From Pseudomonas protegens (GTDB lineage Bacteria > Pseudomonadota > Gammaproteobacteria > Pseudomonadales > Pseudomonadaceae), in NCBI RefSeq assembly GCF_013407925.2, contig NZ_CP060201.1, forward strand, positions 2,790,001-2,854,000: 64,000 nucleotides of DNA, written 5' to 3'. Position 1 is the first letter of the stretch. Each line of letters starts with the position of its first letter. Below are positions 44,717 to 51,357 of this stretch, one piece after another. The notes under the pieces are model-generated. The model made no database searches. It was not told the DNA's origin and saw only the letters and a list, made by a program, of their open reading frames with translations. The position numbers and the translations under genes were made by a program.

Positions 44717-44841
44717 AAACCATAAGATTTAATCATTATATTTTTCGATTCCTGCCTGTATAGGCTCCCAGCGGTCGGGTCTTGCATGAAGCCCATGCGC
44801 CCTGCCGGGGCGCCCATAACAATAACAAGCAGGAGTTGCAC

Positions 44842-48788: not shown

Positions 48789-48792
<4 letters not shown>
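47707..48792 (+). CDS. ntrB: Nitrogen-regulation sensor histidine kinase NtrB
   Basis: Phosphorylates or dephosphorylates NtrC under the control of PII. 361 residues from MTISDPLHRLLLDNLTTATILL. An N-terminal PAS domain (about 8-110) carries no membrane helices, so the protein is cytoplasmic. The H-box AHEIKNPLGGIRGAAQLL has His142, and there is an ATP-binding domain with NIVRNAMQAI, IIDNGPGIP and GTGLGLAIT boxes. It overlaps ntrC by 4 bases. Confidence 0.96.
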
Positions 48793-50225
<1,433 letters not shown>

Positions 50226-50241
50226 AGCACCGCCCCACGGC

Positions 50242-50328
50242 ACGTAGGAGCTGGCTTGCCAGCGAAAAGACCCCTGAGCCTTGCAGAGCGCTGACCGGCG
50301 CTTTCGCCGGCAAGCCGGCTCCTACGAC
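50242..50328. repeat. REP pair (inverted) after ntrC
   Basis: CGTAGGAGCTGGCTTGCCAG (from 50243) and TTCGCCGGCAAGCCGGCTCC followed by TACG, ending about 50325. They face each other across about 40 bases. Confidence 0.8.
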
Positions 50329-50339
50329 GAGGATGTGCG

Positions 50340-50358
50340 TGCACCAGGATGGGGTGCA
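50340..50358. promoter_or_regulatory. NtrC-like site upstream of the NrsZ-type RNA
   Basis: TGCACC (50340-50345) and GGTGCA (50353-50358) are perfect half-sites, but with seven rather than five bases between. A second overlapping TGCATGCACTG follows. It lies about 150 bases upstream of the sigma-54 core. Confidence 0.6.
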
Positions 50359-50443
50359 TGCACTGCCCGAAGGCGCGCTGCAGCGCCATCGAGCCCGGGC
50401 ACACCCCGGGCCTCAGCGCTGAAAAGCCCTCCGCCGAAAACCC

Positions 50444-50478
50444 AAAAGCCCCGGATTACGGGGCTTTCAAATTTTTTC
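50444..50478 (+). terminator. Terminator of ntrBC
   Basis: Arms AAAGCCCCG (50445-50453) and CGGGGCTTT (50459-50467) around GATTA, followed by CAAATTTTTT. It lies just before the NrsZ-type promoter, so the RNA is not simply a tail of the ntrBC message. Confidence 0.85.
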
Positions 50479-50507
50479 ACGGCAGCACGCGCGACTATCG
50501 CGAAAAC

Positions 50508-50523
50508 TGGCACGCCCTCTGCA
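50508..50523 (+). promoter_or_regulatory. Sigma-54 promoter of the NrsZ-type RNA
   Basis: TGGCACGCCCTCTGCA: GG (50509-50510) and GC (50521-50522) are ten bases apart; TGGCACG is a perfect -24 block and CTGCA differs by one from TTGCA. It is the best sigma-54 match in the window. Transcription would start near 50533. Confidence 0.9.
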
Positions 50524-50532
50524 TTAATCCAG

Positions 50533-50920
50533 TCACCACCCAGTTTAGGGGACCTTGGTACAGGCAGGCCGGGGATTCCCCTCTTTAACACCCGGCCCAT
50601 CCCGCTCACAGCGACGGGCCACGTTTTCGGGAATCTCGGTACAGGCAGGCCGGGAATTCCCTCTTTAACACCGGGCTCAGCACGCTGCGAGCGACGCGCC
50701 CAAGCTTTCGGGAACCTCGGTACAGGCAGGCTGGGGCTTCCCTCTTTAACACCGGGCTGATCACGCTTTGAGCGACGCGCCCACAACCCTTTCGGGGACC
50801 CTGGTACAGGCAGGCCTGGAATCCCCCTCTTTACACCGGGACTCATCGCCCGCCCAGGCGATCAGCCCCTCCCGCTTTTGGGGGCCTTGGTACAGGCAGG
50901 CCGGGGTTTCCCTCTTTTAT
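50533..50920 (+). ncRNA. nrsZ: NrsZ-type nitrogen-regulated small RNA with five repeat units
   Basis: A non-coding array between ntrC and the next gene. The core GGTACAGGCAGG starts at 50557, 50638, 50719, 50803 and 50889 (spacing 81, 81, 84, 86). Each core is followed by a G-run, TTCCC-CTCTTT and, in units 1-4, a variable hairpin. The stems keep pairing while sequences differ, for example GGGC/GCCC in units 2 and 3 and ATCGCC/GGCGAT in unit 4. The start is set by the sigma-54 promoter; the end is estimated at the last TCTTTT. In P. aeruginosa, NrsZ lies at the same place after ntrC, is made from an NtrC/RpoN promoter and is processed into repeated stem-loop units that act on rhlA and swarming. 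Here the number of units is five. Identity with NrsZ is by position, promoter type and repeat architecture, not by alignment. Confidence 0.85.
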
Positions 50921-51357
50921 TCCTCCTGCAGGTGGATCGCCAGGCGCCAGCGCCCGTCCACCTGGCTGGCACTCCACTGGCCCCGCAGCGGCCGGGCAGC
51001 CACCAGGTTCAGCAGCAAGCCCTGGTCCGCCAGCCGCACCCGCCAGTTCACGGTCTTCTGATTGACCTGCAACTGACCGTTCTGCGCCCGTCCTTGCGCA
51101 TCGAACAGCAAGGCGACGGTGCCATCGATATGTTCGCCGTGAACCTTGGGCTCGTGGTTGAACCAGACCACCAGGCCATCGGCCGCCACCTCGACCTGTT
51201 GCAACTCCACCGGATCGGGCTGGGTCAGTCGACCAATCATCAGTCCCACCATCATCCCGACAATCGCCAGCGAGCCGAACACCCGCAGCATAAGCTTCGG
51301 TCGCGGGTCCTCTTCAGGCGTAGAATGCAGCCCATCTTTTTCTTCGGAGCCGTGCAT
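50917..51357 (-). CDS. Hypothetical single-pass membrane protein
   Basis: 146 residues. MHGSEEKDGLHSTPEEDPRPKLMLRVFGSLAIVGMMVGLMIGRLTQPDPVEL has one membrane helix (about residues 24-44), then a beta-rich outer domain of about 100 residues (LQQVEVAADGLVVWFNHEPKVHG...HLQEE), which would face the periplasm. Its ATG (51355-51357) overlaps the trmL ATG on the other strand; a later start at MLRVFG (51291) is possible. The stop is within the 3' end of the NrsZ-type RNA on the opposite strand. A gene of this kind is found next to trmL in P. aeruginosa. Function unknown. Confidence 0.8.
   Translation of the reverse strand: MHGSEEKDGLHSTPEEDPRPKLMLRVFGSLAIVGMMVGLMIGRLTQPDPVELQQVEVAADGLVVWFNHEPKVHGEHIDGTVALLFDAQGRAQNGQLQVNQKTVNWRVRLADQGLLLNLVAARPLRGQWSASQVDGRWRLAIHLQEE

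Follow-up and report, generated by a model that had tools for sequence, protein, structure and literature searches.

We find support for the locus at 50537-50927 as nrsZ of this Pseudomonas, the gene for the small RNA NrsZ (Rfam RF02695), here predicted to consist of five hairpin modules on the forward strand of the window (the whole 64,000-nt stretch of Pseudomonas protegens DNA that was analysed). As a joint explanation, we consider it highly probable that this is an nrsZ gene under NtrC and sigma-54 control, with five modules, whose RNA is cleaved, whose loop pairs with mRNA and whose array length turns over in evolution. The RNA family itself is known, and the locus is ordinary in being a further member of it. 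What our comparison of related sequences appears to add is a range of one to eight modules, rapid change in that number, a probable terminator role for the last module and the constancy of the loop.

Two stretches of the window match the RF02695 covariance model far beyond chance and above its gathering score of 76.9, at 50698-50927 (157.5 bits, E = 5.2e-40) and 50537-50678 (111.9 bits, E = 4.3e-27); besides NrsZ, no Rfam model reached its gathering score anywhere in the 64 kb. The array is divided between two matches because the model, with 236 positions, covers three ACAGGCAG hairpins in its consensus and the array has five. RF02695 had no match in any of 21 genomes taken from the order's other families. 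In P. aeruginosa PAO1, the accessible portions of the published accounts describe NrsZ as an RNA of about 226 nt that comes from the ntrC-PA5126 interval, requires NtrB/C and RpoN and occurs mainly as products of about 40 and 140 nt; the first 60 nt are sufficient, and rhlA is activated by it (PMC8395346, PMC9308961). The locus studied here is like PAO1 NrsZ in its place after ntrC, its predicted sigma-54/NtrC-type promoter, its tandem ACAGGCAG hairpins and its covariance-model match, and unlike it in having five modules over about 390 nt, rather than 226 nt with three hairpins in the Rfam consensus, and in having an N9-spaced palindrome. GlnZ of the Enterobacteriaceae is likewise a small RNA under nitrogen regulation and connected with the glnA-ntrBC region, but it is described, in the part of the account available, as cut from the glnA 3'UTR, whereas NrsZ is a sigma-54-driven tandem array after ntrC (PMC9731577). 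Additionally, the accessible part of a 2026 report has PA14 ntrB and ntrC mutants swarming like wild type, yet without halos on blue plates (PMC13390351); thus, the published link between NrsZ and swarming may depend on strain or medium and is perhaps not general.

The gene setting agrees with this identity. The array, from 50544, lies downstream of ntrC, the nitrogen regulator NR(I) gene at 48789-50225 on the forward strand (NCBIfam TIGR01818, 797.7 bits against a cutoff of 558.6), with ntrB just upstream of ntrC and ending at 48792 (NF008293, 398.5 bits). A sequence-only reading of this DNA had placed an NrsZ equivalent directly after ntrC, and both the placement and the equivalence are borne out, the latter by the Rfam match, the position, the sigma-54 core, the NtrC-like site, the ACAGGCAG hairpins and the covariation of the linkers. 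For comparison, 112 loci were fetched; ntrC was found in 101, and the 11 with no ntrC in the examined stretch were dropped. High module number was one of the grounds on which the 101 were picked, and module numbers among them are thus not distributed as in a random sample; two of them (L032 and L238) seemingly come from the same genome, with identical ntrC and contigs of equal length, leaving 100 distinct arrays. Two other origins were considered and rejected: a mobile element, since blastn of 50500-50930 gave no match among 72,556 plasmid and 50,697 phage records, and a paralogous array elsewhere in this genome, since a one-module model matches just the five modules. Between ntrC and the NtrC-like site, at 50246-50327, lies an inverted pair, GTAGGAGCTGGCTTGCCAGCG ... 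CGCCGGCAAGCCGGCTCCTAC, which looks to us like a pair of Pseudomonas REP sequences.

Ahead of the array, a sigma-54 core promoter with GG-N10-GC spacing, TGGCACGCCCTCTGCA, is recognizable from sequence at 50508-50523 on the forward strand, where it had first been noted, and we infer an RNA start near 50533. Such a core precedes the first module in all 101 loci and scores at least 10/12 in 100 of them, against 63 of 2,020 control windows within upstream sequence, the scoring consensus having been derived from these same 101 loci. A palindrome of the form TGCAC-N9-GTGCA, TGCACCAGGATGGGGTGCA, lies at 50340-50358, 168 nt upstream of the core, and is a candidate enhancer that matches what we take to be the NtrC half-site consensus at 10 of 10 positions. 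An intrinsic-terminator-like hairpin of nine pairs with a T-rich tail (50445-50467, forward strand) sits between this palindrome and the promoter and would close ntrBC; the terminator and NtrC-like site that had been claimed ahead of the core are therefore both present.

The spacing of the candidate enhancer is exceptional. Across the 101 loci, NtrC-type half-sites spaced by N7 score at least 8/10 in 90 (60 of 505 shuffles) and at least 9/10 in 61 (7 of 505 shuffles), and in 63 the best-scoring N7 site is 155-162 nt upstream of the core. The genus is thus enriched in N7, whereas the window carries N9 with 10/10 half-sites, and no N7 site scoring at least 8/10 was found upstream of its array. 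The N9 site is a feature of the window's clade, scoring 10/10 in L200, L207 and L208 and 9/10 in L206 and L204. We grade NtrC binding at the window's site as likely and not as settled, because its spacing is N9 and not the commoner N7. From these motifs and the published P. aeruginosa work, we suggest that the promoter at 50508-50523 would be used when nitrogen is limiting, sigma-54 RNA polymerase there being activated by phosphorylated NtrC bound some 170 nt upstream, and that the transcript would run from near 50533 through all five hairpin modules.

The five loops ACAGGCAG start at 50560, 50641, 50722, 50806 and 50892, at spacings of 81, 81, 84 and 86, each with a G-run before it and CTCTTT after it, as the sequence-only reading had described. 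Pairing of the G-run with a C-run leaves ACAGGCAG as a loop of eight bases, and CUCUUU is single-stranded in the module structure. The longer segment TTCCCTCTTT had been taken as exposed; this stands for the constant unpaired part, the loop ACAGGCAG, and falls for the TTCCC half, which is the 3' side of the stem and pairs with the G-run. The modules of 44 nt begin at 50544, 50625, 50706, 50790 and 50876, and the linkers of 37-42 nt between them are able to form hairpins of their own. Along the forward strand, module 1, a core hairpin with a CTCTTT tail (50544-50587, loop 50560-50567, fold z -1.84), matches both the one-module model and Rfam; linker hairpin 1 (50586-50624, z -2.40) shows covariation; module 2 (50625-50668, loop 50641-50648, z -3.76) matches the one-module model; linker hairpin 2 (50667-50705) belongs to the covarying linker class; and module 3 (50706-50749, loop 50722-50729, z -2.23) falls in the Rfam match at 50698-50927. 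Linker hairpin 3 (50748-50789), module 4 with its weak stem (50790-50833, loop 50806-50813), linker hairpin 4 (50832-50875, z -2.97) and module 5 (50876-50923, loop 50892-50899) complete the array. Units 4 (z 0.15) and 5 (-1.06) and linkers 2 (-0.01) and 3 (-1.40) fold little or no better than shuffles, and the fold of the full-length array is uninformative, being not more stable than its shuffles (z -0.66).

Pairing was also compared across loci. Among 90 core hairpins, 61 of them distinct, pairing holds in 99.0% of cells and drops to 30.8-74.6% when the partner is shifted, and one pair changes from G-C to A-U in nine distinct rows. For the linkers, we aligned the 150 of 177 distinct sequences with a period of 76-90, leaving out 27; here the paired share of cells is 84.1%, falling to 34.7-41.7% when the partner is shifted by one to three columns, and both sides have changed in 114 cells, where shuffling gives a mean of 43.1. 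The proposal, made from the window, of linker stems that change in sequence yet remain paired is confirmed by these counts; core and linker stems both covary, the proposal having named an absence of base-pair covariation as the result that would speak against it. RNAalifold predicted no pair on the linker alignment, although the named pairs covary. Tested against mononucleotide shuffles at the 5% level, 163 of 212 linkers of at least 20 nt fold. Some arrays do without a linker (in L014 the five modules repeat every 43 nt, and in L011 and L217 the periods are 61-63 nt), and thus the linker hairpin is not essential to an array.

This conservation, which follows pairing, also bears on whether the repeats are instead translated as a repetitive peptide, a reading to which we give almost no credence. 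Long frames at 50281-50760 (forward) and 50322-50846 (reverse) overlap parts of the array, the periods 81 and 84 are multiples of three, and in 54 of the 77 arrays with at least three modules one forward frame is open throughout. However, the window array has stops in every forward frame (1, 3 and 2), and periods are rarely multiples of three, being so throughout in just 4 of the 77 arrays and in 98 of 245 periods overall. On these two grounds, the coding reading was rejected for the window.

The last module differs from those before it in the T-run that follows its hairpin. Among internal modules, the longest run is three in 217 of 245 and at least four in 28, whereas it is at least four in the last modules of 88 of 90 arrays and in all 11 single modules. 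In the window, modules 1-4 have the tail CTCTTTA and module 5 has CTCTTTTATT, picked up by the terminator scan. Because T-runs are mostly three internally and four or more at the end, the last module looks like a terminator: RNA polymerase would read through modules 1-4, with their weak T-runs, and module 5 would probably end the RNA. A convergent gene for a protein of 146 amino acids, found in the open reading frame listing and without a Pfam or NCBIfam family by profile search, lies on the reverse strand at 50917-51357, and its stop codon (50917-50919) is inside the T-run of module 5. The same arrangement, with the stop codon at positions +24 to +26 relative to the last loop, is found in 91 of the 95 loci having an aligned gene, and thus the T-run serves two ends at once. 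One genome (G058) matches window positions 50540-51340 (E = 2.6e-57) and has no module by the model, a possible loss of nrsZ.

Since a G+C-rich hairpin and trailing T are common to all modules, with the last one stronger, the modules might all be partial terminators that set how far transcription reaches, for instance guarding the convergent gene from antisense reading, and the stop codon within the terminator T-run in those 91 loci would suit such a role. We consider this very unlikely, as it leaves unexplained both NtrC control and an invariant loop carried on varying stems.

That loop is constant across loci. A scan allowing one mismatch found it exact in all 346 modules of the 101 loci, with AGGCAGG in 345, and this constancy agrees with the ACAGGCAG motif in the available part of a published NrsZ account (PMC9308961). 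In distant genera the 5' side of the loop drifts, to TCAGGCAG in g26 and one g37 genome and to TTAGGCAG in g34, and the other g37 genome has an inserted base in the loop; in all three genera AGGCAGG survives with a different stem. Stems and linkers vary around an invariant loop, which singles the loop out; these comparisons point to it as a functional contact and the part whose partner is to be sought, as ACAGGCAG here and as AGGCAGG at family level. Outlying copies were also seen. In a g35 genome, two NrsZ-like modules stand alone, one on each of two contigs (L301, G431:C1:734009-734052; L321, G431:C8:62356-62399); a sigma-54-like core precedes both, a second hairpin with a T-run comes after each, and neither has ntrC within the 1.5 kb examined. 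In g37, a single diverged module after ntrC (L312, G433:C1:280282-280326), by eye with no GG-N10-GC core, is possibly a decaying copy.

The contact could be with RNA or with protein. NrsZ of PAO1 is said to be cut into three similar modules (Wenner et al., 2014). By analogy with P. aeruginosa, cleavage of the window's transcript in the single-stranded CUCUUU/ACACC joints would yield short modules, which would offer ACAGGCAG as a rigid loop for pairing with target mRNAs. Alternatively, the loop (AGGCAGG family-wide) would be bound by a protein and the array would be a multivalent decoy resembling RsmZ or CrcZ and would not act by base pairing. CrcZ, under the CbrA/B two-component system, and CrcY titrate Hfq-Crc, and RsmY and RsmZ titrate RsmA; like NrsZ, these are Pseudomonas regulatory RNAs with repeated short motifs. 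Unlike theirs, the NrsZ motif ACAGGCAG is, on our understanding, neither an A-rich CA motif nor a GGA motif. We regard a protein sponge as improbable. It would account for one loop in 346 of 346 modules, for AGGCAGG on other stems in distant genera, for several loop copies per RNA and for our finding no shared mRNA target; however, about a quarter of genus genomes (102 of 398) have a single module, which is poor for a decoy, and the target search was narrow. The available portions of the literature, in which CrcZ and CrcY are decoy RNAs of Pseudomonas (PMC9049629), also give rhlA as a base-pairing target of NrsZ for which the first 60 nt suffice (PMC8395346, PMC9308961).

Complements of the loop were sought. 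The 10-mer complement occurs at 19 places in the genome, five of them the modules themselves; of the other 14, we judged one (window 44751-44760) to fall within a leader preceding an evident gene. This perfect ten-base complement, CCTGCCTGTA, precedes an MFS transporter-like gene, 91 nt from its ATG (44842), and may be chance. An 8-mer complement ahead of a ribosome-binding-site-like motif and ATG gave 41 rows in six genomes; in the 30 loci examined, a single pair of proteins was shared between genomes, and there the site falls within an open frame. This narrow search of six genomes found no mRNA leader with a loop complement common to them, and we propose no target.

Module number varies widely. 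The one-module covariance model, built from 90 modules picked by exact ACAGGCAG and run in Infernal with stricter filters on one genome per species, found modules in 389 of 398 genus genomes, one to eight in each. Three modules are commonest (150 genomes), followed by one (102), two (71), four (42), five (17), seven (5), six (1) and eight (1), with none in nine; the five of the window are therefore a minority state. Across the family, modules were found in 208 of 248 genomes and in 15 of 19 genera. On a quick ntrC tree of the 101 loci, in which 42 of 97 inner branches are under 80, module number needs at least 40 changes, against a mean of 58.2 and a lowest value of 49 in 500 shuffles, and thus it follows descent but changes often. 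Where a tip has a neighbour closer than 0.1 on this tree, the two differ in module number in 12 of 37 cases.

The window and its relatives indicate where such changes fall. L206, L207 and L208 have five modules each, and the nearest neighbour by ntrC DNA, L200 (96% over 1152 columns), has seven. Set against their L200 counterparts, module 1, the penultimate module and the last module of the window match at 96%, 95% and 98%; for window module 3 and L200 module 5 the figure is 96%, so the difference lies mid-array. Additionally, two periods are at least 90% identical in 18 of the 77 arrays of three or more modules. Comparison shows array length to have shifted by tandem duplication and loss of middle modules. 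We regard this turnover as the moderately interesting part of the locus. Within the accessible parts of the literature on NrsZ/RF02695 and on repeat number in small RNAs, we found no account of module number across species; Wenner et al. (2014) may discuss it.

Although we lean against it, module number may act as a rapidly evolving dial that sets the yield or valency of the AGGCAGG loop per transcription event, with a family-wide partner, RNA or protein, that is not rhlA. The sequence-only reading had likewise suggested that unit number could tune dose; the comparative results make the idea testable without proving it. Close relatives with five and seven modules stand behind the same promoter, and single-module species offer the minimal form. 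Thus, the general question of whether repeat number inside a small RNA sets regulatory dose is now directly testable. A very recent duplication can also be seen in L018 (G008), a five-module array with periods of 93-101 nt, in which modules 2 and 3 are identical over a 101-base period.
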